Virus record (IMG/VR): IMGVR_UViG_3300035034_001804
Location: 1 to 30,359 of that record
Strand: one strand, 5' to 3'
Length of the DNA stretch: 30,359 bases
Source of the DNA: a virus
Part shown: piece by piece, positions 2,747-25,919 of the stretch
How the letters are laid out: each line of letters opens with the position of its first letter
How positions within the stretch are numbered: the stretch's first letter is position 1
Notes under the pieces: generated by a model
Databases searched by the model: none
Seen by the model: the letters and a program-made list of their open reading frames with translations, nothing else
Told to the model about the DNA's origin: nothing
Translations under genes and position numbers: made by a program

Positions 2747-4558
2747 CTAAATTAAAAACTTGTTTAATTTATCAATTAATAGATTGTCTTTCTTCATTTT
2801 AGATTCCATAAATGGCTGTGCGTCAGACTTATTGTTGAACATATAAGAACCTGGCGTACTAGGACTAGTTACTATATCCCAACATATGATTTCGAAATCA
2901 TCTTGTACAATTAATTTACCATTTATATTATCTAACGAACCAACACCCCTAGAAGATACACCTACACGGATTCCCTTTCTTAACATGTTAGCTATTTGGT
3001 CACCCTCACAAGATATTATACCTTGGTTAATAAAACCAGGTGACATGATGATTTCGACTTCACCAACTAAGGTTGTACCTTCCCACCATATTTTTTTAAT
3101 TTCATGTGATACATTTCTATTTGAAATAACAGATGACTCTGGGTGGTCACTATTGTGTGTCCAAGAAATTTTACCATTATGTCTCATTAACCAAGTTCCA
3201 TTATCAACAGTAACACAATAAACATTATCATTAAATGGTATTTTTTCTGCTTTAGTAAAACGTGTATCTAGTGAAATCCCCTTAGAACGTCTTTCAGAAA
3301 TGATATGCAATGGTTTAGAATTAGACGCTTCTATTAATCGCTTAGTTTTAACTTTACGTTTAACTAATTCTAACATCCCATCAGTTTCAACCTCTTCATT
3401 AATTATTTTAGTATCTGTAATATACCTATCTTCTGGTATGCGGGTATTAAAAGTTGCGCCATTAGAAATCTTAAGCATAATTTCAAAAACGTCTTCTGAT
3501 AATTTATCTGAAATAGTATAATATTCTTTCATTAATTTACCATTTTTATCACTTCTATTTCTACCATCCCCTAAAAGCATCCAATCTAATAAAATATTCA
3601 ATAAATTAACATTCCAATTTTTTGCGTAATTAGGTATATATTTTTCTTCGGAATTTCCTAAATCAAATAGAAAATTATATAATGGTTTATCATAAATTAT
3701 GAATTGTCTATCATCACTAATCGAATATTCAAATGGTAACTCATTTAATAAGTTTATTATTTTTTCTGAAGATTCTTTTTTAACCTGAGTAATAGTAACC
3801 GAATTTTTATTTTTACCCCCTCTAGTTCCAGAGCAATGACCATCAGCGATAAATATACCTAGAAATCTAGCCCATAATTCAGAATCTATTTCATAATTCG
3901 AATTCGGGATATTTATTTTTTTAGAATCCTCACCAACCCACTCACCTGAATTTTTAATATATGAATGTGAAACTTTAGAATCACCATTATTAATTTTATC
4001 ATATAATTCTTCAGCTGTTAAAATATATGGCTTGTCATTCCTATCCCATAAAACAATTTTATGTTTTTTGGTTACTAACATATCTAATGATGAAGAGTTG
4101 TATATATGAATCATATCATCATTATATTTTTTATCTGTGGTTCTAGAAACTGATTGTACTTCTAATTCATTAGTGTTAGTATTTAAAGTGAATATCTCAT
4201 CACCAATAACCATATCTTGAATTTCCCTCCAACCGTCTTTAGTAAATATTTCAGTACCTCTTGGTACGCATTCACCAATAGATAATCTTTGGTCAATTAA
4301 CTCTTGATATCTGTTCGCTTCTCTCCTTAAAATGTCTTCTGGATATATCCTACCATTTCTGTTTTCAATACCATATTTTTGTAGAATTACAAATAGAACT
4401 AACGGTTCAGCCATAACAGGGCCATTACCAACTTTATTAACTTCTGAAATAAAAGATTTATTTCTAATGTCACTAGGTTCAATAAAACCAGCGTCACCTT
4501 CAATCAATAAACCGCTACCAGTTTTTCCACCTCTTAATATTTTATAATCATTGGTCAT
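2747..4558 (-). CDS. 21: Prohead maturation protease, gp21-like, interrupted by an intein
   Basis: This is the head maturation serine protease that cleaves scaffold and capsid proteins. The 603-residue precursor splits into extein residues 1-96 and 470-603 (230 residues together, close to T4 gp21 at 212) and a 373-residue intein. After splicing the junction reads SIGE-SDHPESS, restoring the GExDHP motif that holds the catalytic His in phage prohead proteases. The catalytic Ser is probably in GVSSRG, about residues 533-538. Both halves look intact. The gene begins 16 nt after a late-type box and directly follows a terminator, so it starts its own late unit. The function is well supported by motif, size and position; splicing activity is inferred from intact intein motifs. 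Confidence 0.9.
   Translation of the reverse strand: MTNDYKILRGGKTGSGLLIEGDAGFIEPSDIRNKSFISEVNKVGNGPVMAEPLVLFVILQKYGIENRNGRIYPEDILRREANRYQELIDQRLSIGECVPRGTEIFTKDGWREIQDMVIGDEIFTLNTNTNELEVQSVSRTTDKKYNDDMIHIYNSSSLDMLVTKKHKIVLWDRNDKPYILTAEELYDKINNGDSKVSHSYIKNSGEWVGEDSKKINIPNSNYEIDSELWARFLGIFIADGHCSGTRGGKNKNSVTITQVKKESSEKIINLLNELPFEYSISDDRQFIIYDKPLYNFLFDLGNSEEKYIPNYAKNWNVNLLNILLDWMLLGDGRNRSDKNGKLMKEYYTISDKLSEDVFEIMLKISNGATFNTRIPEDRYITDTKIINEEVETDGMLELVKRKVKTKRLIEASNSKPLHIISERRSKGISLDTRFTKAEKIPFNDNVYCVTVDNGTWLMRHNGKISWTHNSDHPESSVISNRNVSHEIKKIWWEGTTLVGEVEIIMSPGFINQGIISCEGDQIANMLRKGIRVGVSSRGVGSLDNINGKLIVQDDFEIICWDIVTSPSTPGSYMFNNKSDAQPFMESKMKKDNLLIDKLNKFLI
3152..4270 (-). mobile_element. Intein with LAGLIDADG endonuclease inside gp21 protease
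   Basis: This is a 373-residue in-frame insertion, precursor residues 97-469. It starts with Cys (TGC at 4268-4270) followed by PRGTEIFTKDGW (block A). It has a TKKH block B and two LAGLIDADG-type helices, LGIFIADG and LLDWMLLGDG. It ends in WTHN followed by Ser (the Asn codon is 3152-3154). It therefore has a standard class 1 layout: Cys1, penultimate His, terminal Asn and Ser +1. Both homing helices keep an acidic residue, so the endonuclease may be active. The insertion lies one residue before the Asp of the DHP catalytic motif, a site where errors would be lethal. Confidence 0.92.
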
Positions 4559-4574
4559 CTTTAAATGCTTTGTC

Positions 4575-4583
4575 TATAAATAT
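4575..4583 (-). promoter_or_regulatory. Putative late promoter box upstream of protease gene
   Basis: The minus strand reads ATATTTATA, 16 nt before the gp21 start and immediately downstream of the terminator at 4594-4624. This places the start of a new late unit here. Confidence 0.55.
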
Positions 4584-4593
4584 GTTAATAAAA

Positions 4594-4624
4594 TAAAAAA
4601 AGCCTAATCTTAAACGATTAGGCT
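4594..4624 (-). terminator. Rho-independent terminator with the stop codon in its loop
   Basis: A perfect 9-bp stem (AGCCTAATC with GATTAGGCT, 4601-4609 and 4616-4624) encloses a 6-nt loop and, on the minus strand, is followed by a run of T. The TAA stop of the 159-residue gene (4610-4612) is in the loop, so coding sequence and terminator overlap. It separates the cupin/membrane-protein unit from the protease unit. Confidence 0.85.
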
Positions 4625-5089
4625 TTCATTTGCTACTTTTAGTGCTTCTTCCTTATGTTTATAAAACTCGAAATGTCGATGTCTATTAAATATCTCTTTA
4701 CATGCGGTTTCACTTAACTTATTCATTTCATCCAACAACGTATTATTATTCAGTTTATAATTACCTCTTTGATATAGAGTCACTTCGCAACTCATGAAAC
4801 TAGGTTTATCACCTGATATCCCAGACTCTCTCATATCCATATCCACGATAACTATATCGTTATGGAATATATCTGTGTTTATATCTCTATATAAATAACT
4901 TTTAATTTTTTTAGTTAGGTCAGTAATAATCCTCTTATAATTATTACTTTCATCATAACTAATCGTGTTGGACCACGAACTAAATTTGATATATATGCTC
5001 TTTGGGTCGTTTTTGTCTACGGAACCAAAATGTGTATTTAAGTTATTATCGATTTGTATTTCTTTCTCTGTACCTCTGCTTTTTTTCAT
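4610..5089 (-). CDS. Hypothetical protein (159 aa), last gene before terminator
   Basis: I do not recognise this protein. It is soluble and mixed charge, with no membrane segment. The middle (about residues 70-115) alternates hydrophobic and polar residues, for example DIVIVDMDM and SCEVTLYQRG, as in beta strands. The C-terminal 40 residues look helical. It lies 49 nt downstream of the cupin gene and ends inside a terminator, so it is the last gene of the unit that starts at 6734. This unit occupies the place of T4 genes 67 and 68, but I see no similarity to them. Confidence 0.75.
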   Translation of the reverse strand: MKKSRGTEKEIQIDNNLNTHFGSVDKNDPKSIYIKFSSWSNTISYDESNNYKRIITDLTKKIKSYLYRDINTDIFHNDIVIVDMDMRESGISGDKPSFMSCEVTLYQRGNYKLNNNTLLDEMNKLSETACKEIFNRHRHFEFYKHKEEALKVANESLIV

Positions 5090-8858: not shown

Positions 8859-11800
8859 TTATCTTGAACCACTAAATAACCACATATACTTACCCTTAGG
8901 GTCTTGCATATTCTTAGCTACAGTGTGACTAAAGTTAGGTTGTTTCGTGGTTAATTTCTTCCTTCTATCTTTTTTTGATGTAAAACCATTACGTCTATAT
9001 TCCTCATTACTAACTTCACCCTTATTAACCATCCAACCAGATAACATAGCCTTACTTTTCTCTTTAGATTCGTTTAATTTTTTAAATGAGTATTCAGCAA
9101 CCCATAAAGCATAAGCTAGAGCCATAAGTAAATCATCATGATACCCATCCATGTGGTCGGCCCTACCGTTTTTAAATACAAACGTTCTCATCTCTGAGGT
9201 TAGTCTTCTAGACCTAACTTTTACGCCATTCATCCTGACCATCATTTCTAGATGACTTACAATAGGCGCTCTGAGACCAGCGCCTACATTAAAACCTGGG
9301 AATTTACCTTCATCAGAATAATTCTTTGGGGTTCTACTCTTCTTTTCTAGAGGTTTGCTTGAACTGTCGGCGTAGTATAAATTAGGTGTACCCAAATCTA
9401 ATAAACGGTTAATAGTACCAACACCCCAACCACCAGTAATATCTACAACCACCAATGCATCATATATTCTACCATATTCATTAACCAAATCACCTAATAA
9501 GTCTGGTCTCAATTTACCTTTATATTCCATAACTTGAGTCATGGTATTAAAATCTATAATGACTATAGTTGAAGAATCTTCTCCATCACCTCTAGCAACA
9601 TCAGCAGATAAAATATATTGACGTCCCTCTTTAGGTTCCTCCCATATCCAAATTTCTTTTTCATCACCAGAAATAAATTCAGGTTCAATAACATTCTCCT
9701 TTTCTTGCATTGTGATGTATTTATCGTCAATAACAGCACCACCAGAACCAATAAAAGATACATCAAGCTCTTGAGCAATCATCTTTTTATCGTTGTTCAT
9801 ACCACGACACATTTCACGATACCAACTAGATTCAGGTTTATAACCTTTCTGTAACATTTTGTCGTAGTGTTCGTGGATAGCTCTAACACTTTCCTCAGAA
9901 TCACCCTCTTTCGTAAACTTAACCTCTTCTATAATATCATCATCATCATCTTCATTAATCCAACGCAGGTCTTTGTTATATCTAGGGTCTTGATACCACT
10001 TCATTTCAATAACATGAAAATCGTTATCACCACTCATAGCCTGTTCATAGGTTTTGTAGTATAACGAATCCATACCGTTAGGTGTAGAAACCAAAGAAGC
10101 TCTACCACCAGTGTTGTGACTAATAAGACCATTAGAAATAAATGAATTTGTTTCAGGTACGTGTAAATCGTAAGTATAATCTTCAGATTTTTCAATATCC
10201 ACTATCTCATCAATATAAAATGATTCGTTATATTTAACTTGGGATAATAGATAAGTTAATAAATCACTATTTGGTATTATTTCTATTAATTTATATAATG
10301 AATGATAAGTTAACCTTTCATATTTAGACTCCCAAAACCTATCTAAAAATCTAACTTTATATTTAGGTAGATTATGTTCCTTAAGTAAATTAGAAATTAA
10401 CTCTTTATTTATTAATACATACCTACTATTATCAACTTTATTTAGTAAATATTCATAGTTATTTTGTTTTCTACCCATTCTAAACCCAATTTCCTCATAA
10501 AATCTAAGGGCGTTTATAGAATAGATTTTTAAATTGTAAATAATACAAACGTGGTCTTTATTTTTGATTATTGAAGATTCACTTGTTTTATATTTATTTT
10601 TCTTTACATGAGAAATTATACCAAAATTCAATAATAATGTATGTAATGTTTTAATTAATTTTTTAGATGTGCTAGAATATTTAATATCTTTAATAGTTGA
10701 CATTCCATCACTATCAAACATACCTTGTAAAAAGGCTTTAATAACACTCTTGGGCATCTTCAATAAAGCTAAGGGGATTTCTTTATCCCTAGCGTTATGT
10801 TTATTTAATCCAAACGATTCAAACCAAGAAACTAATTCAGTTGAATAAAATTGAAAATGTCTATCATCAACTTGAGTGAAACCATTACCTAAATCAGCTT
10901 CATCATTTAATAAAAACTCTTGAATTCTTTTATCTGTATTAGTTATTGTAATACCTCTAGAAGTGAAGTTACCTTCAGCTACAAACAACCCTAATAAATA
11001 ACAAAAATTTAAATTAGATTCCAAATTTGTTGGAATATTCACAGGTTTATTATTAGGTGTTTTTTCAAAGTTGAACTCAAACTTACTTGACTTACCAAAA
11101 TAATTTTGATTATATTGTATAATCGGTTTATCGCCAACTTCCAATTTATTCATTCTAACCCATTTTTCAGAATTGTTTCTATTAACTAGAATAGGGTGTT
11201 TCCAACTACCTTCCAATTCAATACCTAATTTAGTTTTTATTTTAAATGTTTCCCCATATTCACTAACGAATGTTTGTGTAGCGTCTACAATTACACCATC
11301 TTTATTACAAACTCTATGAGGTGTTTTTAAATCACTAAACCCTAATATATCTTTCTCAGTTACTAACTCATCCATACTTACTAACCCACCTTCGGTTAAT
11401 ATTAAACTATCTTTCTTAAGACAACCTAAAGCCGTCAAAGCTGTACCAAAAACAATAGCACCGTTTTCGATAAACGCCGCCTCATCCATAATTAACCAAG
11501 TAGGTGTAAACCCCCTTAATGCGTTTTTAGATGTAGCAACAGCCCTAATTCTACTACCATTAGGTAATTTAAGTTCTTTTTTAGACTCAGTTGAATAAAT
11601 CTTTTTATTTTCTTTTTCTTCAGTACCATAATACTCAGACCCCCATGCCCATCTAGGGAATTGATTAACAAAATCTTTAATCTTATCAAGGAATTCAAAG
11701 GCCATATCTTGCTTATTTGCAAGAATTAGAATAGCCTCTGGGTTATTAGGGTCAGCGAATATAGCTTTTACTGCGGCATAAGCAGCTGTTGTTGTAGATA

Positions 11801-12002
11801 CACCAGCCTGTCTAGGTTTAGTAACCATAGTGAACCTGTGATTTTTATAGGCTTTTATAATATCTCTTTGTTTAGGGAATAGTTTGAACGGAACAAACCC
11901 TTCTTTTGTTTTATCAAAGGTTTTTAAATATTCGGTAATTGCATAACATGGGTCGACTAAACACTTAGTATACTCACTTAAAATTTCATTTCCAGTTAAC
12001 AT
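8859..12002 (-). CDS. 17: Terminase large subunit, gp17-like, interrupted by an intein
   Basis: This is the DNA-packaging motor ATPase and nuclease. The 1047-residue precursor has extein residues 1-193 and 631-1047, together 610 residues, the same length as T4 gp17. The ATPase shows a Walker A-like KPRQAGVST (62-70), Walker B LIMDEA (170-175) and, after splicing, motif III in STPNG (639-643). The RNase H-fold nuclease shows SADVARGDGEDS near residue 800, VVVDITGGWG near 850 and HDDLLMALAYALW near 957, supplying the metal-binding Asp residues. The intein lies between Walker B and motif III. The start is 11 nt from a late-type box and follows the terminator at 12041-12066. All core motifs are intact. 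Confidence 0.95.
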   Translation of the reverse strand: MLTGNEILSEYTKCLVDPCYAITEYLKTFDKTKEGFVPFKLFPKQRDIIKAYKNHRFTMVTKPRQAGVSTTTAAYAAVKAIFADPNNPEAILILANKQDMAFEFLDKIKDFVNQFPRWAWGSEYYGTEEKENKKIYSTESKKELKLPNGSRIRAVATSKNALRGFTPTWLIMDEAAFIENGAIVFGTALTALGCLKKDSLILTEGGLVSMDELVTEKDILGFSDLKTPHRVCNKDGVIVDATQTFVSEYGETFKIKTKLGIELEGSWKHPILVNRNNSEKWVRMNKLEVGDKPIIQYNQNYFGKSSKFEFNFEKTPNNKPVNIPTNLESNLNFCYLLGLFVAEGNFTSRGITITNTDKRIQEFLLNDEADLGNGFTQVDDRHFQFYSTELVSWFESFGLNKHNARDKEIPLALLKMPKSVIKAFLQGMFDSDGMSTIKDIKYSSTSKKLIKTLHTLLLNFGIISHVKKNKYKTSESSIIKNKDHVCIIYNLKIYSINALRFYEEIGFRMGRKQNNYEYLLNKVDNSRYVLINKELISNLLKEHNLPKYKVRFLDRFWESKYERLTYHSLYKLIEIIPNSDLLTYLLSQVKYNESFYIDEIVDIEKSEDYTYDLHVPETNSFISNGLISHNTGGRASLVSTPNGMDSLYYKTYEQAMSGDNDFHVIEMKWYQDPRYNKDLRWINEDDDDDIIEEVKFTKEGDSEESVRAIHEHYDKMLQKGYKPESSWYREMCRGMNNDKKMIAQELDVSFIGSGGAVIDDKYITMQEKENVIEPEFISGDEKEIWIWEEPKEGRQYILSADVARGDGEDSSTIVIIDFNTMTQVMEYKGKLRPDLLGDLVNEYGRIYDALVVVDITGGWGVGTINRLLDLGTPNLYYADSSSKPLEKKSRTPKNYSDEGKFPGFNVGAGLRAPIVSHLEMMVRMNGVKVRSRRLTSEMRTFVFKNGRADHMDGYHDDLLMALAYALWVAEYSFKKLNESKEKSKAMLSGWMVNKGEVSNEEYRRNGFTSKKDRRKKLTTKQPNFSHTVAKNMQDPKGKYMWLFSGSR
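10113..11423 (-). mobile_element. Intein with LAGLIDADG endonuclease inside terminase
   Basis: This is a 437-residue insertion, precursor residues 194-630. It begins with Cys (TGT at 11421-11423) in CLKKDSLILTEGG. It has a block B-like GSWKHPI and two LAGLIDADG helices, LLGLFVAEG and LQGMFDSDG. It ends LISHN (Asn codon 10113-10115) before Thr +1. The spliced host junction reads TALG-TGGRASLVSTPNG, continuous with gp17 motif III. The C-terminal splicing block is EDYTYDLHVPETNSFISNG. It is a class 1 intein and looks functional. Confidence 0.93.
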
Positions 12003-18093: not shown

Positions 18094-21000
18094 ATGAAAT
18101 TCAATAAAACGTTAAGTGAAATTATGAGAGGTGCTATGAGTAGTGCTAAAGATTATGAAGACAATAAAATAAGACCAGAGCACATAACCTTATCGATTAT
18201 TTTACATGCCGACAATGCTGTTTATCAAATATTGATGAATGCGAATTTCAATATTGAAAGTTTATTTGACCAAGTTGATTCACTCTTAACTAATAGTGTT
18301 ATAAATACAAATAAAGCTTATAGTTCTTCACCAGAGATATTACCTAGTGAGTCTACTAAGTTTTTAATCAATCAAATGAAGAAAGAGTGTGATAATATGA
18401 ATGAGAATCTTATCTCAGAAAAGCATTTGATGTTAGCGCTACTTAAAACGAAGTGTGATGCACAAAAATCGTTCAATAAACTTAAAATGAATTATAAAAC
18501 TTTTAAACAATTACTAATGGAACCCGAAAACAACATAAATGAACCAACCGATAGTGAGTTTGAGAACATTCCACTTAATAACCCTAAAAAAAGAAAATCC
18601 AAAAACTCTTCTAAAACTGAAGTACTAGATAATTTTTGTAGAGATATCTCTAGAGCAGCATCCGAAAACAGAATCGACCCAGTTGTGGGCAGAGGTGATG
18701 AGATTAGAAGAGTCACAGCAATATTATCTAGAAGAAAGAAAAATAACCCAGTGCTGATTGGTGAAGCTGGTGTGGGTAAGGCACAACCTCTAACAGCTAA
18801 AATACTTACACCTAATGGTTGGACTACTATGGGTGAAATAGAAGTTGGTGATGATGTTTTAACACCTAATGGTGACGTAACTAAGGTAATTGGTACCTAT
18901 CCACAAGGTGAGAAAGATATTTATCAAATAACATTTAAAGATGGTAGGAGTACTGAAGCATGTGGTGAACATTTATGGCAAGTATATGGAATTCCAAAAG
19001 GCGAAAATAGAAACCACACATGGTCAACTATCAATACCCTTGATATAAAGGATAAAATCGAAAACACTAATTATGAACTGAAAATTCCTTTAGTATCAAA
19101 TCAACTCTTTTCTAAAATTGAAAATAATAAGAATTATGTAATTGACCCATATTTAATGGGGTTATTATTGGGTGATGGTCATTTTGGTAAAAGTGAATTA
19201 TCATTTACAAGTGCTGATATTGAAATCCCTGAGTTAGTAAGTGAAATAATTGGTGAGGATTATCAATTAAACTTAAATAAAGTTAAAAATAAAACAAATT
19301 CTTATAGATTAGGTTTAAGTGATTCTAAATATTTAGAGGTTAGAACTAGACATTATAAGAATGATAGGGTACATCCATTATTAAAAGAAACAGATTCATT
19401 AAATTTGACTGAAACAAAATCTGAAACCAAATTTATACCAGAAAAATATAAAAATGGTTCTTTTAATCAAAAAATTAGTTTATTACAAGGGTTGTTAGAT
19501 TCAGATGGTACGGTAACAGAAACAGGTACAATTCAATATTCTAGTGTTAGTCAACAATTAATAAAAGATATTCAAGAATTAATTTGGTCTATAGGTGGTG
19601 TAGCAAAAATTAAAGAAAAACAAACTTTTTTCACTTATAAAGATGAACGTAAAAAAGGGCAATTATCTTACGTTTTAACAATTAGGTATAAAACCCCTAG
19701 AAATTTATTTAGGTTACAAAGAAAAATAGAGCGACTTCCATTAAATTATCAATATTCAGACACTCTTAAAAATAATATTACCGATATTAATTTTATTGGT
19801 GTTAAAGAGGCTAAGTGTATTAAAATTGAAGATGAGAACCACTTATATGTCACGGATAATTATGTTGTGACTCATAACACATCAATAGTAGAAGGTTTGG
19901 CCTTATTAATAAACAGTGGTGACGCACCTAAACCATTATTAGGTAAGCGCATATTCTCATTAGATTTAGCTTCTATTGTTGCAGGTACTAAGTACCGTGG
20001 TCAATTTGAAGAGAGAATGAAAGCTATTTTAGAAGAACTTAAAGACAACACTGATGTTGTTTTGTTTATTGATGAGTTACACACCATAGTAGGTGCTGGT
20101 GGCGCATCAGGAGCGCTAGACGCATCTAATATTTTTAAACCAGCTTTAGCTAGAGGTGAAATTCAAATCATAGGTGCTACAACATTGGATGAATATCGTG
20201 AAAATATTGAAACTGACGGTGCTTTAACAAGAAGGTTTCAAGAAGTTCTAGTTAGAGAACCATCTTTAGACGAGACTAAAGATATTCTAACCAACATAAA
20301 AGATAATTACGAAAATTATCATAAAGTTAAGTATAGTGATGAGGTCATTGACCTAATTATTAAGTTAGCTGACAGGTATGTGTCTGATAGAGCTATGCCA
20401 GACAAGGCCATTGATATAATGGATGAAACTGGTGCGTTTACCAACATAGACGTTAAGCTACCTAAAAAAATAAAAACTATAAAGGATAAGATAGTTGATA
20501 TTCAAGAAGAGATGAAAGCTGTCATCAAACAGCAAGACTTTGAAGATGCCGCTAAGCTTAAAAACGATAGATTAAAGTTAGAGACAGAGCTTGAAAACAT
20601 GATGTTTGAGTGGGAAAATAATAATGAAGTTAACTTTACGGAGATAACTAGTGAAATGGTAGAAACTGTAATATCAACTATGACAGGTATCCCATTAACC
20701 AAATTGACGTCAGTAGAGGCCAACACTCTTAAGAACCTTGAGAAAGACTTGAAAGATATCGTTATCGGTCAAGATAAGGCAGTTAGTAAGATATCTAAAT
20801 GTATTAGAAGAAGTAGATTAGGTATTAGAAACGCAGATAAACCAATGGGTTCCTTTATCTTCTTAGGCCCAACAGGTGTAGGTAAAACACACCTATCTAA
20901 AGTTATTGCTAAACAGGTATTCGGTGATAAAGAATCCTTAATTAAGGTAGATATGTCAGAGTACATGGAAAAATTCTCTATGACTAAATTAATTGGAGCA

Positions 21001-21672
21001 CCTCCAGGTTATGTTGGATACGGAGAAGGGGGTAAACTTACTGAAGCAGTTAGACGTAGACCTTATTCTGTAATCTTATTTGATGAAATTGAGAAAGCCC
21101 ATGAAGACATCTTCAACTTAATGTTACAGCTTCTAGATGAAGGTTATTTAACTGACAGTAATGATAGGAAGGTAGACTTTAAGAATACAATCATTATTAT
21201 GACTTCTAACATTGGTGTTAAAGAGTTAAGTAATTTTGGTAAGGGTATTGGTTTTGAGACCAAGAACTCTATTATAAACGAGGAAGAACGTGCTAAATCA
21301 ATAATTCAAAAGGCTTTAAAAGATAAATTTAAACCTGAATTTTTAAATAGGATAGATGAAACAATCATCTTTAATTCACTTAAACAAACAGATATCAATG
21401 AAATAATTAAAAACGAAATTGATATTGTTAAAAGTAGGGTAAGCGAGTTAAATTATTACTTGCAAGTGAATAAGAGTGCTATGGATTACATTGCTAAAGA
21501 GGGGTATCATAAAGAATATGGTGCTAGACCACTTAAGAAAGCAATTCAGAAGTACGTTGAGGACCCTATAACTGATGAGGTTATGGATGGTAACCTAAAA
21601 GAAGGTGGTAATATTAAACTATCTTACACCGCCAAGAGTGGCATTAAGACAAAGGTTAGTAATCCTAAATAA
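18094..21672 (+). CDS. clpC: ClpC-type AAA+ unfoldase, interrupted by a class 3 intein
   Basis: This ATP-driven protein unfoldase or disaggregase has an N-terminal Clp repeat domain (about 1-140), first AAA+ domain, a UVR-like middle segment (about 810-835, QQDFEDAAKLKNDR) and second AAA+ domain. Motifs are Walker A GEAGVGK-T (split by the intein), Walker B LFIDELH near 658, second Walker A GPTGVGKTH near 925, Walker B LFDEIEKA near 995 and the C-terminal YGARPLKKAIQ. The extein is 826 residues, ClpC size. The UVR-like segment and a GIGF loop near 1052, at the place where ClpC and ClpA carry the ClpP-docking tripeptide, favour ClpC over ClpB. It may recruit host ClpP; no phage ClpP is in the window. 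Host-type promoter upstream, terminator downstream. Confidence 0.93.
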   Translation: MKFNKTLSEIMRGAMSSAKDYEDNKIRPEHITLSIILHADNAVYQILMNANFNIESLFDQVDSLLTNSVINTNKAYSSSPEILPSESTKFLINQMKKECDNMNENLISEKHLMLALLKTKCDAQKSFNKLKMNYKTFKQLLMEPENNINEPTDSEFENIPLNNPKKRKSKNSSKTEVLDNFCRDISRAASENRIDPVVGRGDEIRRVTAILSRRKKNNPVLIGEAGVGKAQPLTAKILTPNGWTTMGEIEVGDDVLTPNGDVTKVIGTYPQGEKDIYQITFKDGRSTEACGEHLWQVYGIPKGENRNHTWSTINTLDIKDKIENTNYELKIPLVSNQLFSKIENNKNYVIDPYLMGLLLGDGHFGKSELSFTSADIEIPELVSEIIGEDYQLNLNKVKNKTNSYRLGLSDSKYLEVRTRHYKNDRVHPLLKETDSLNLTETKSETKFIPEKYKNGSFNQKISLLQGLLDSDGTVTETGTIQYSSVSQQLIKDIQELIWSIGGVAKIKEKQTFFTYKDERKKGQLSYVLTIRYKTPRNLFRLQRKIERLPLNYQYSDTLKNNITDINFIGVKEAKCIKIEDENHLYVTDNYVVTHNTSIVEGLALLINSGDAPKPLLGKRIFSLDLASIVAGTKYRGQFEERMKAILEELKDNTDVVLFIDELHTIVGAGGASGALDASNIFKPALARGEIQIIGATTLDEYRENIETDGALTRRFQEVLVREPSLDETKDILTNIKDNYENYHKVKYSDEVIDLIIKLADRYVSDRAMPDKAIDIMDETGAFTNIDVKLPKKIKTIKDKIVDIQEEMKAVIKQQDFEDAAKLKNDRLKLETELENMMFEWENNNEVNFTEITSEMVETVISTMTGIPLTKLTSVEANTLKNLEKDLKDIVIGQDKAVSKISKCIRRSRLGIRNADKPMGSFIFLGPTGVGKTHLSKVIAKQVFGDKESLIKVDMSEYMEKFSMTKLIGAPPGYVGYGEGGKLTEAVRRRPYSVILFDEIEKAHEDIFNLMLQLLDEGYLTDSNDRKVDFKNTIIIMTSNIGVKELSNFGKGIGFETKNSIINEEERAKSIIQKALKDKFKPEFLNRIDETIIFNSLKQTDINEIIKNEIDIVKSRVSELNYYLQVNKSAMDYIAKEGYHKEYGARPLKKAIQKYVEDPITDEVMDGNLKEGGNIKLSYTAKSGIKTKVSNPK
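18781..19878 (+). mobile_element. Class 3 intein with LAGLIDADG endonuclease inside ClpC Walker A
   Basis: This is a 366-residue insertion, precursor residues 230-595, between Lys and Thr of GEAGVGKT. It starts with Ala (AQPLTAKILTPNGW), not Cys or Ser, so class 1 splicing is impossible. It carries the class 3 WCT set: Trp in block B (GEHLWQV), Cys in block F (AKCIKIED) and Thr in VVTHN, with Thr as the +1 residue. LAGLIDADG helices are LMGLLLGDG and LLQGLLDSDG. Without splicing the first ATPase site is destroyed. Confidence 0.9.
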
Positions 21673-24344: not shown

Positions 24345-24758
24345 CTACTCTCCGATATATTCGTGACTAAAGCAAACTCTTTTGTTGTCGATATAATGGT
24401 CGTTAAACATGTTGATATGTTTAACATCTGTTCTTAATTTCTTGTTCTTAGACGTTAGCTTCCATAAGGGTGAGTTTTCTCTATAAAAGCCCATGCGTGG
24501 GTGTGCAGTTCTAGAGAAATATCGCTTACCGTCATCAAGATGCAACTGAGCAATAGCGTTAGAAAACCTAACACCAATACCCATACCCTGATAATCTGGT
24601 AATACAACGGTTCTATGACCTCTCCAAGCGTTTTTAATACTACCACTAGGCATGGCCATACTAGCACCGAAACAAACTATATTACCATTCCAAACTCCTA
24701 TCCAACATCTAGTAGCTTTTGAAATTTTATCATCTAAATAATGATGGTTTTTGAACAT
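24345..24758 (-). CDS. GNAT acetyltransferase domain, downstream half of a frameshift ATPase-GNAT fusion
   Basis: From the ATG at 24756-24758 this is 137 residues. WRGHRTVVLPDYQGMGIGVRF is a typical GNAT acetyl-CoA-binding core (V-x-LPxxQGxGIG), followed by SRTAHPRMGFYREN. The reading frame is open upstream of the ATG back to 24825, and the added sequence, YSRPDIVIEIYRTKYSVWP then MFKNHHYL, looks like the natural N-terminus of this GNAT family. The full domain thus seems to be made by a -1 frameshift from the ATPase frame (signal at 24760-24821), giving a protein of about 360 residues. The architecture resembles COG2401, ABC-type ATPase fused to predicted acetyltransferase (from memory). Substrate unknown; Mom-like DNA modification is one possibility. 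Confidence 0.85.
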   Translation of the reverse strand: MFKNHHYLDDKISKATRCWIGVWNGNIVCFGASMAMPSGSIKNAWRGHRTVVLPDYQGMGIGVRFSNAIAQLHLDDGKRYFSRTAHPRMGFYRENSPLWKLTSKNKKLRTDVKHINMFNDHYIDNKRVCFSHEYIGE

Positions 24759-25426
24759 TGGCCAGACACTGTATTTTGTTCGATATATCTCGATAACAAT
24801 GTCTGGCCTAGAGTAAAATTTCCGTTAAAGACTTCACCTGTATTCGTATTAATAACCCAATCTGGTTCCAACCACTCTAAAATATCCTCATGACAAGTAG
24901 ATAACACAACATTTTTAATGTTATGTGATTTAATATACTTAGATAAGGACACTGAAGCTGCTTTAGCTACGTTCCTATCGACTACAGAGGTAAATTCATC
25001 TATACATCCGTCATTTTTAATTGAGCGGCTTAAATCGGCTCTAAACTTCTCTCCATTAGAAAGAACATGATAAGGTTTATACCAAGTAGGTATAGAATTT
25101 AACCCTACAGCACTTAATCTATTAATTCCATCATCTGGTGAATTGAAATGAGATATGATTGCCTCATTTAATTTCCATTTGTGGGTCTCGACATCACCAA
25201 ATTGCTTCAATAAAGTCGTCTTACCAGTACCAGAGGCGCCTACTATTACACCAATACCATATTCTTCAGGTAAAAAATTAGGTTTAACCCATGGATTAAA
25301 TTTATTGACACCGTCAAACTTACAATCAAACGCTTTCTCACTAGTCTTTATGAATAAATCAGGGTCTACGTATGAAACTAAAGGGGTTTCAGACTTATCT
25401 AGATAGCCAAGTATTTGTTTTTTCAT
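24734..25426 (-). CDS. ABC-type ATPase, upstream half of a frameshift ATPase-GNAT fusion
   Basis: This is a 230-residue soluble ABC ATPase. Walker A GASGTGKTT is near residue 62-70, the signature-like LSNGEKFRADLSRS near 121-134, and Walker B with catalytic Glu in CIDEFTSVVD near 140-149, followed by a switch-like STCHEDI. There is no transmembrane partner nearby, so transport is unlikely. In frame 0 the last 26 residues (after NGNF) are unlike any domain and end at 24734. A -1 shift at AAATTTT (24815-24821) instead continues into the GNAT domain. A plausible host-type promoter lies at 25432-25462. Confidence 0.88.
   Translation of the reverse strand: MKKQILGYLDKSETPLVSYVDPDLFIKTSEKAFDCKFDGVNKFNPWVKPNFLPEEYGIGVIVGASGTGKTTLLKQFGDVETHKWKLNEAIISHFNSPDDGINRLSAVGLNSIPTWYKPYHVLSNGEKFRADLSRSIKNDGCIDEFTSVVDRNVAKAASVSLSKYIKSHNIKNVVLSTCHEDILEWLEPDWVINTNTGEVFNGNFTLGQTLLSRYIEQNTVSGQCSKTIII
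24760..24821 (-). promoter_or_regulatory. -1 programmed ribosomal frameshift signal
   Basis: On the minus strand the heptamer A-AAT-TTT (24821 to 24815) is in the zero-frame register required for -1 slippage (X-XXY-YYZ). A 6-nt spacer (ACTCTA) follows, then a perfect 9-bp stem, GGCCAGACA (24808-24800) with TGTCTGGCC (24768-24760). The 31-nt loop can fold further through TCGA repeats. Slipping converts NGNF-TLG into NGNF-YSRPD, entering the GNAT frame. The elements and spacing match known viral frameshift signals. Confidence 0.75.
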
Positions 25427-25500: not shown

Positions 25501-25713
25501 TTACATTTGTTCTTTAAAAGCTTGCCAATTATTGTTCAGTTGGTCAACTAACTTATCTACTAATTCTAGGGCCGTCTCATTACCAAATAAAGTTGGTTTA
25601 TAATCATTATTGGTAGACAAGATTCTAGCTATGTCTTCGGCTGAATCTTGAACTGAACCACTAGAACCGTTTAATAGTTCATGACTTGGGATAGAGTTAT
25701 TCTCGTTTAACTT
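25501..25713 (-). CDS. Downstream -1 frame of the A10 frameshift pair (no start codon of its own)
   Basis: This is an open frame of 70 codons from the A10 run to TAA at 25501-25503. It reads KLNENNSIPSHELLNGSSG, then a helical section with DSAEDIARIL and ALELVDKLVDQLNNNWQAF. There is no in-frame ATG until the last codon, and the normal codon character continues. It is therefore made only if ribosome or polymerase slips at the A10, or if the A10 length is wrong. Joined to the 70-residue ORF it gives about 139 residues. Function unknown. Confidence 0.6.
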   Translation of the reverse strand, partial: KLNENNSIPSHELLNGSSGSVQDSAEDIARILSTNNDYKPTLFGNETALELVDKLVDQLNNNWQAFKEQM

Positions 25714-25919
25714 TTTTTTTTAGTAATGTTACTTATTTTAATACCTTTTTTTTGTAATTCCTTTAACTGAGATTCAGTAACAGTTACTTTATTAGTCTTA
25801 GGTTTACTCTCAGCGGGTACCAAGTTTCTTTCAACGATTGCTTCTTCAACAAGGTCGTTGATTAGATTAATTAATTTAGATTCTTGTATCTTAACTATTT
25901 TAGGATTTTTATCTGCCAT
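25707..25919 (-). CDS. Hypothetical protein (70 aa), upstream partner of second A10 frameshift
   Basis: This small basic protein has two similar motifs, IQESKLINLINDLVEEAI and VTESQLKELQKKGI, also resembling INEKQLKVIESHI in the 111-residue protein at 28499. It ends ITKKKS-stop, where the Lys codons are part of an A10 run. A -1 slip continues for 70 more codons. It starts 16 nt from a late-type box. The repeated ESQLK motif may be a binding segment for a common virion partner (speculative). Confidence 0.7.
   Translation of the reverse strand: MADKNPKIVKIQESKLINLINDLVEEAIVERNLVPAESKPKTNKVTVTESQLKELQKKGIKISNITKKKS
25712..25721 (-). promoter_or_regulatory. Second A10 slippery run joining two frames
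   Basis: The minus strand reads ACT AAA AAA AAA AGT TAA in the upstream frame. A -1 shift gives AAG TTA AAC GAG and an open frame to 25501. The run length and shift direction are the same as at 15148-15157. Confidence 0.6.

Follow-up and report, generated by a model that had tools for sequence, protein, structure and literature searches.

The window analysed here, the whole of a viral contig of 30,359 bases (IMG/VR record IMGVR_UViG_3300035034_001804), carries on its minus strand an ABC-type ATPase followed by a GNAT acetyltransferase whose open reading frame (ORF) lies in the -1 frame relative to it (Table 1). The ATPase contains what we take to be a P-loop (GASGTGKT), a signature motif (LSNGE), a Walker B/D-loop (IDEFTSVVD), and an H-loop (CHEDIL); its Pfam matches to AAA and ABC_tran are weak and under the cut-off, and the GNAT part matches Acetyltransf_1 over its cut-off and Acetyltransf_7 under it. 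An earlier note on this DNA had proposed that a -1 frameshift signal joins the two domains into one enzyme, which is the subject of this report.

Table 1. Positions of the recoded gene, its putative signal, and other features of the window
Feature	Position	Strand	Remarks
ABC-type ATPase, 0-frame ORF	25426..24734	minus	230 amino acids (aa), including a 26-residue tail past the shift site
Upstream stop TAA of the -1 frame	24827-24825	minus	followed by CGG AAA TTT before the new codon TAC
Slippery heptamer AAATTTT, register A-AAT-TTT	24821-24815	minus	in the ATPase frame; also in relatives L013 and L047
Spacer ACTCTA	24814-24809	minus	6 nucleotides (nt), between heptamer and stem
Putative stimulator stem, 5' arm GGCCAGACATTGT	24808-24796	minus	pairs with 24772-24760
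Putative stimulator stem, 3' arm ACAGTGTCTGGCC	24772-24760	minus	pairs with 24808-24796
0-frame stop TAG	24736-24734	minus	within the DNA of the GNAT His-His-Tyr-Leu (HHYL) motif; would end the ATPase-alone product
GNAT acetyltransferase part, -1 frame	24345..24815	minus	156 aa after TTT, reached by the predicted shift
Three genes with intein or LAGLIDADG signatures	2747-4558, 8859-12002; 18094-21672	minus (first two positions); plus (third)	see text

The register of the heptamer is that of the bacterial -1 frameshift class (X_XXY_YYZ with a 3' stem), and a stem of 13 bp with one G-U pair lies close downstream, as in that class. The heptamer, the 6-nt spacer, and an exact 9-bp pairing (GGCCAGACA/TGTCTGGCC) had all been noticed before and are present as described, the pairing being contained in the longer stem. 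The 60 nt 3' of the heptamer fold at -25.5 kcal/mol (z -6.81), and 0 of 200 dinucleotide shuffles did as well. Since the -1 frame is shut by the upstream TAA, the shift must come after that stop; the frame opens three codons before the new codon and not seven, as the earlier note had counted. It reads TAC TCT AGG CCA GAC and continues to TAG at 24347-24345, for a fusion of 360 aa, in agreement with the previous estimate of about 360 residues. Two further expectations for the unshifted case hold as well: the 230-aa product gains a tail of 26 residues, and a GNAT ORF called from ATG at 24758 loses RPDIVIEIYR, a stretch kept in relatives.

Both halves of the gene match, in order, a single PHROG profile of 357 positions, phrog_11143 (ATPase to positions 34-194, 3.4e-61; GNAT to positions 199-351, 1.8e-39). 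The earlier note likened this architecture to that of COG2401, a tentative assignment. Our sample of the family, drawn from four single-protein scans, two profile scans (the best 80 of each), 12 loci from phage records, and the window, comprises 235 sequences, 230 of which contain both domains; the scans (profile scans, best 80 each; genome contigs, best 80 of 397) lean towards the query. Counting as distinct those that differ in a 280-nt GNAT stretch leaves 148, the window and the 12 phage-record loci included. Related sequences are counted separately throughout, and the positional control and synonymous recoding used below lessen the effect of kinship and do not abolish it. In an alignment of 19 rows, Pfam at an E value of 0.001 finds Acetyltransf_1 in 16 and ABC_tran in 15, and a structure model built with the same alignment for L116, a natural single ORF of 362 aa, reaches a mean pLDDT of 84 and a pTM of 0.53, with block confidence dropping to 63 across the junction (residues 201-210); Foldseek matches this model to GNAT and ABC-cassette structures. 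PADLOC returned weak matches, most of them short and located at the P-loop. Further heptamer-stem members were sought with a DNA pattern scan, which gave 35 loci; only L236, L246, L266, and L269 of these match the family, all on contigs already in the set, and a first scan of genome contigs with a Streptococcus-type profile found no relative. In L266 (449-1527, on the contig of L013), ~1.08 kb interrupt the ATPase match within the P-loop, between residues 66 and 67; the recoded gene may contain an intein or an intron here.

The two domains lie in one frame in 89 of the 148 distinct sequences, and GNAT is in the -1 frame in 58. The remaining one, from Streptococcus phage Javan420 (L065, one of the 12 phage-record loci), scores as "+1" through an additional frame change inside GNAT; around 2049-2143 this record has a -1 junction and the second GNAT frame change, unlike the Streptococcus and Lactococcus phage loci L067, L069, and L071. 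The abundance of one-frame relatives and the match of both halves to one profile support the proposal that a -1 signal joins the ATPase to GNAT, and the -1 relation in 58 of 148 speaks against the two findings that were to overturn it, an indel error in the window or two complete genes in relatives. Fifty-two of the 58 align at a site of the window type, and the six others (L064, L067, L069, L070, L071, and L074) belong to other lineages.

In a tree, a single clade of 52 rows (SH-aLRT 99) contains the window-type members, with 50 that have GNAT in -1 (45 with a run of nine T, or T9, 3 A3T4, 1 T8, and 1 G) and two natural one-frame fusions, L116 with T10 and L134 with T10 then A4. This is a quick LG+G4 tree, unrooted and with several long branches, from which Javan420 and two short T9 rows were left out. 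Other clade members share 53-80% GNAT identity with the window. The reading frame switches at the shift site, as the variation by codon position shows: upstream, entropy at 0-frame positions 1/2/3 is 0.61/0.20/1.25, and downstream, at -1-frame positions, it is 0.75/0.46/0.82, position 2 again being the least variable and position 3 the most. Past the site, no stop interrupts the ATPase frame before the HHYL motif in any of the 52 -1 members, where an open frame is expected in 16.5 under synonymous recoding, a null that assumes the stretch after the site to code for GNAT only; the third frame is open over the same stretch in 1/52 (0.7 expected). Both frames therefore look translated, and the clade shows a conserved overlap with selection on the new frame.

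These observations bear on the possibility that the layout stems from a sequencing or assembly indel, or from a dying gene, which we regard as extremely improbable. The window is a metagenome contig, in which indels are common, and variants with A11 and A12 occur in a group of relatives with A runs (below); but the layout is common to 52 distinct clade members with signs of selection on both frames, by which sequencing error as its cause in the clade is refuted, and near-identical genes recur across metagenomes (L002 and L003, from different ones, have one difference in 1073 nt). L003 carries, 3' of the gene (4053-4993), a second partial GNAT C terminus, 79% identical over 52 residues, with a 242-aa ORF on the opposite strand between the two.

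A second alternative is that the ATPase ends at 24734 and a separate GNAT gene starts at the ATG at 24758 or couples to ATPase termination. The same codon, at the position of a W-x-M-F motif, is ATG in 48 of the 52 members, and translational coupling was the assignment for ABC-transporter clusters in a frameshift survey (PMC3711429). However, the conserved RPxIxIxIYR stretch lies upstream of this ATG, and an internal start as the main route to GNAT was rejected for that reason. Two members have ATC or CTG at this codon, and methionine stands here also in single-ORF relatives. Between the upstream stop and W-x-M-F, the GNAT frame has no start codon in 47/52 (four have one before the R-P motif and one between the two), so that full-length GNAT needs the shift there; as far as the R-P motif, 48/52 lack a start codon, contrary to the pattern of two complete genes that the earlier note had named as evidence against recoding. 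We judge two overlapping genes to be very unlikely.

We are thus confident, on comparative grounds (the conserved frame relation, the alternative frame kept open, the geometry of the signal, and the conservation of the stem), that the window gene is a single ATPase-GNAT gene whose halves, in different frames, are joined by programmed -1 ribosomal frameshifting. In the mechanism we propose, a ribosome at A-AAT-TTT would pause at the 13-bp stem, which lies 6 nt further on; some of the paired tRNAs would slip back one base and GNAT would be translated, giving the 360-aa fusion, while the remaining ribosomes would read 26 codons more and stop in the HHYL-coding stretch, giving the 230-aa ATPase with its tail. 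Slippage by the ribosome, its efficiency, and a use for both products are what we infer from sequence. By analogy with dnaX, the likely purpose would be a complex of both products with more ATPase subunits than catalytic GNAT subunits.

The slip site itself varies within the clade. Among the 52 -1 members, GG-T9 is found in 47, AAATTTT in three (the window, L013, and L047), GGATTTT in L049, and T8 then C in L091. AAATTTT with a stem is thus found in 3/52, a stem with an altered slip site in two more, and T9 without a stem in 47/52. The five non-T9 members have strong stems (z -6.7, -7.0, -5.6, -4.2, and -5.9; 100 shuffles each), and the T9 members have no downstream structure (mean z -0.15; 1/47 below -2), on which grounds a single stem common to the whole clade was rejected. 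Heptamer plus stem, the form described in the earlier note, is in the minority. The heptamer group is nested among T9 members in the tree (support 90 for a group of seven, 99 for four) and L091 is placed apart from it in the clade, so that absence of T9 and presence of a stem coincide at two places. The stem starts 6 nt after the seven-base site in the window, L013, L047, and L091 (T-TTT-TTT), and 5 nt after it in L049. Standard pairs number 13 of 13 in the window, 11 in L013, 11 in L047, and 10 in L049, and at 4 of the 13 positions changes on both sides keep a pair (pair 2 in L047; pairs 8 and 11 in L049; pair 12 in L013 and L047).

Several points weigh against frameshifting on this signal as the explanation for the gene. 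Between them, L013, L047, and L049 break stem pairs 7, 11, 12, and 13, and the stem is confined to four related sequences (those three and the window) plus L091. L049 carries GGGGATTTT in place of AAATTTT and retains the -1 layout, which therefore does not strictly depend on the heptamer. As the 47 T9 members are without a stem, transcriptional slippage is possible there and the mechanism may not be shared across the clade. A short GNAT from the internal start may also be made as an extra product.

Slippage by RNA polymerase would make a fusion mRNA, mainly in the T9 relatives, and the form in the window would recently have taken the place of theirs. Homopolymer transcriptional slippage takes runs of ~8-9 or more A or T; 48 of the 52 clade members have one (47 T9, 1 T8), and the window, with A3T4, has no long homopolymer, which makes polymerase slippage unlikely there. 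All 47 T9 members keep GG-T9 unbroken despite possible synonymous breaks in the Gly, Phe, and Leu codons, with no stem; runs of nine or more are rare elsewhere in their ATPases (1/47); and the T10 members are in-frame fusions. Transcriptional slippage also has a precedent in Thermus dnaX, according to a passage of PMC5009743. T-TTT-TTT and T-TTT-TTG, on the other hand, fit the ribosomal heptamer pattern too. We consider polymerase slippage unlikely as the account of the gene as a whole; for the window and L091, the sequences favor ribosomal -1 frameshifting, and for T9, where ribosomal and polymerase slippage are not separable, they lean towards the polymerase because the run is uninterrupted and the stem missing.

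Phase variation through DNA slippage in the homopolymer, a contingency switch, is a further alternative to recoding. T9 and T10 alleles do occur in sister lineages, and A10, A11, and A12 in another group, but such a switch should give a mixture, whereas the 50 distinct T-run members comprise 47 T9, 2 T10, and 1 T8 then C, and a site of the window type lacks any homopolymer; phase variation of this kind seems to us scarcely credible.

Most of the examined relatives encoded in one frame carry a different motif, resembling that of prfB, the gene for release factor 2 (RF2). At the junction, 73 of 87 (the T10 rows L116 and L134 being left out) have a purine-rich hexamer then T, which is AGGGGG in 34, and the hexamer is kept although the encoded pair varies (RG, GR, RR, RE, GG, ER, KE). 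CTT follows 3 bases after the hexamer in 48 of the 73, the next codon being AGG in 32 and CGG in 17; the CTT-AGG junction resembles the yeast Ty1 site CUU-AGG-C. Under a somewhat altered definition, and with L068 also left out, a hexamer like a Shine-Dalgarno (SD) sequence is present at the junction in 81/86 viral one-frame genes, where synonymous recoding predicts 13.6. Over the stretch to HHYL, the +1 frame is open in 85/86 of them (37.3 expected) and the -1 frame in 17 (13.4 expected). A second genome-contig scan, of whose 397 hits we took the best 80, repeats this pattern: all 80 genes are in one frame, 75 have the SD hexamer (7.7 expected), 80 have the +1 frame open (60.0 expected), and 35 the -1 frame (36.9 expected). 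Titles of these contigs (L348-L427) are mostly Planctomycetota, with some actinobacteria (Nonomuraea) and archaeal metagenome-assembled genomes; the enzyme may therefore also occur outside phages.

The complete motif, SD hexamer, 3 nt, and CTT, stands at the junction in 50/86 viral genes and in 65/80 of those best genome-contig genes, and elsewhere in at most one gene per other 66-nt window tested. It occurs in 0/52 members of the window's clade, the window included (SD hexamer alone, 2/52). Measured from 24 codons before HYL, the +1 tail frame runs for 26 codons in 39/86 genes and for 38-70 in 46, and is shut at once in one; relative to GNAT it is the same frame as the unshifted tail of the window. 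A +1 shift in the single-ORF genes would yield an ATPase with a tail beside the full-length enzyme, as we read their sequences. A 2025 paper on prfB gives an SD-like consensus approaching AGGGGG with CTTT three nt downstream (PMC12421855).

Use of SD sequences may bear on which signal a lineage carries. SD-like tetramers precede 7/343 starts of ORFs near the site in the window clade (4-8% in shuffles) and 0/27 in the window itself, against 152/401 in the single-ORF group (19% in shuffles); to a ribosome that ignores SD pairing, the RF2-like signal would be unusable. Flavobacterium johnsoniae, according to a passage of the same paper (PMC12421855), rarely uses SD sequences and shows low frameshifting at the prfB motif. 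Among 13 records with named hosts, inspected by eye, three with Bacteroidota hosts (Porphyromonas, Tenacibaculum, Nonlabens) are without the hexamer, six have it (two Gordonia, Leptospira, Pasteurella, Pseudoalteromonas, Aeromonas), three have a near form (Rhodococcus, Arthrobacter, Pseudomonas), and Vibrio phage vB_VmeM-32 has CTT-AGG-C without it; the hosts of the window clade may be Bacteroidota-like. A simple SD rule is contradicted by the Streptococcus-type group (33/58 ORFs; 27% in shuffles) and the A9-A12 group (36/146; 10% in shuffles), which use SD sequences yet carry other signals, so SD-blindness is not the sole cause.

These other signals are diverse. GNAT is also in -1 in six phage records: Streptococcus phage MismyG (L067), a Streptococcus agalactiae phage (L071), Lactococcus phage P335 (L069), Oenococcus phage vB_OeS_unk162 (L074), Enterococcus phage 9184 (L070), and Thomasclavelia phage TR-TP1 (L064). 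Folded without a shuffle control, the first three show GTTTTTC, which does not fit X_XXY_YYZ, then a stem around CCCCAC/GTGGGG; phage 9184 has A-AAA-AAG with a stem 7 nt on; and in the Oenococcus phage the site is A-AAG-GGC and the stem is weak. TR-TP1 lacks a heptamer, and a TTG could serve as a start there, so that two genes may be present. A further viral scan (67 loci) uncovered a group in which A10 stands at the junction in 23/23 in-frame members, which also favors polymerase slippage; two other in-frame rows compared with them, L066 and L075, belong elsewhere and are without the A run. A11 occurs in L294 and L319, A12 in L296, and A9 with GNAT in -1 in L293 and L331; some of these differences in run length could be assembly errors.

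Across the family, then, the outcome, an ATPase with a tail plus a fusion, seems from the sequences to be conserved while the signal changes (RF2-like +1, T9, A9/A10, slippery site with stem). It is likely, in our view, that this is an ancient recoded family of phages and of bacterial, perhaps archaeal, genomes, whose commonest form is the RF2-like +1 signal; that T9 stands in for it in the window's SD-less clade; that two lineages there swapped T9 for a slippery site and stem; and that others converged on A10/A9, GTTTTTC with a stem, A-AAA-AAG with a stem, or A-AAG-GGC, the two-protein output being conserved and the means of decoding interchangeable. The order in which the signals arose is one we infer from their distribution on an unrooted tree.

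Acyl modification of a DNA base is the published prediction for the biochemical role of the domain pair, repeated in a 2021 survey that also names Tenacibaculum phage pT24 (PMC7824862, in a passage on the pair). A ParB-like gene precedes the ATPase in several phages, overlapping the ATPase start in L067, L075, L339, L344, and L347, and a formyltransferase-like gene lies 3' of it in Porphyromonas and Pseudomonas phages (L338, L342). The record of pT24 (L068) has an in-frame TGA at ~2116, within the GNAT part, and annotates two "ABC transporter ATP-binding" genes; the TGA may be an error, a pseudogene mutation, or a site of readthrough.

Elsewhere in the window, a 70-aa ORF on the minus strand (25919..25707) ends just past an A10 run, and its -1 frame is open for ~70 residues to ~25505. 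Its N-terminal part has relatives and the extension has none in the loci gathered, among which no second recoding site in a neighboring gene was found except in the window; 25505-25919 may hold either a second slippage site or a single indel. Three long genes, encoding a prohead protease, a large terminase, and a ClpB/C-like AAA protein, have intein or LAGLIDADG signatures (Table 1), with an Intein_splicing match only in the first two, under the cut-off in the first.

If our interpretation is correct, recoding signals of several types have taken each other's place at one homologous site in a family that is widespread. It would offer a natural experiment on SD signals versus SD-less ribosomes and on a stem appearing upon loss of a homopolymer, and would hint at the subunit composition of a predicted DNA-modification enzyme of phages. 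The fusion product may also have been overlooked in records that list the two halves as individual genes, among them those of Lactococcus phage P335, Streptococcus phage MismyG, and Enterococcus phage 9184.

The ABC ATPase-GNAT pair was reportedly introduced in a paper of 2013. Searches of the open-access literature, several of them made without the term frameshift, found no paper on frameshifting in this family. Among the closest known systems is phrog_11143 itself, with pT24 among its matches: it has the same two domains in the same order and matches both window halves significantly; the passage of PMC7824862 covers the domain pair only, and the whole word "frameshift" is absent from its main text.

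Among the cellular genes of bacteria, dnaX and prfB are the classic examples of programmed frameshifting; among phage genes, those for tail assembly chaperones (also named in PMC10885494) are alike in that slippage gives a shorter and an extended protein. The chaperones are structural assembly factors of a fold unrelated to ATPase-GNAT. With prfB, the single-ORF relatives share the SD-like hexamer, 3 nt, and CTT, here at a domain junction; they differ in that CTT is not followed by a stop and in that full-length protein would be made by default and a shorter form through the shift, and the window is without the motif. The dnaX gene (tau/gamma) likewise makes, from one gene, a short ATPase product and a longer one with an extra C-terminal domain, through ribosomal shifting in Escherichia coli and transcriptional slippage in Thermus (PMC5009743). 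It encodes an unrelated protein, however; the shift gives the shorter product in E. coli and would give the longer one in the window, whose short product has a 26-codon tail in a frame that is kept open.

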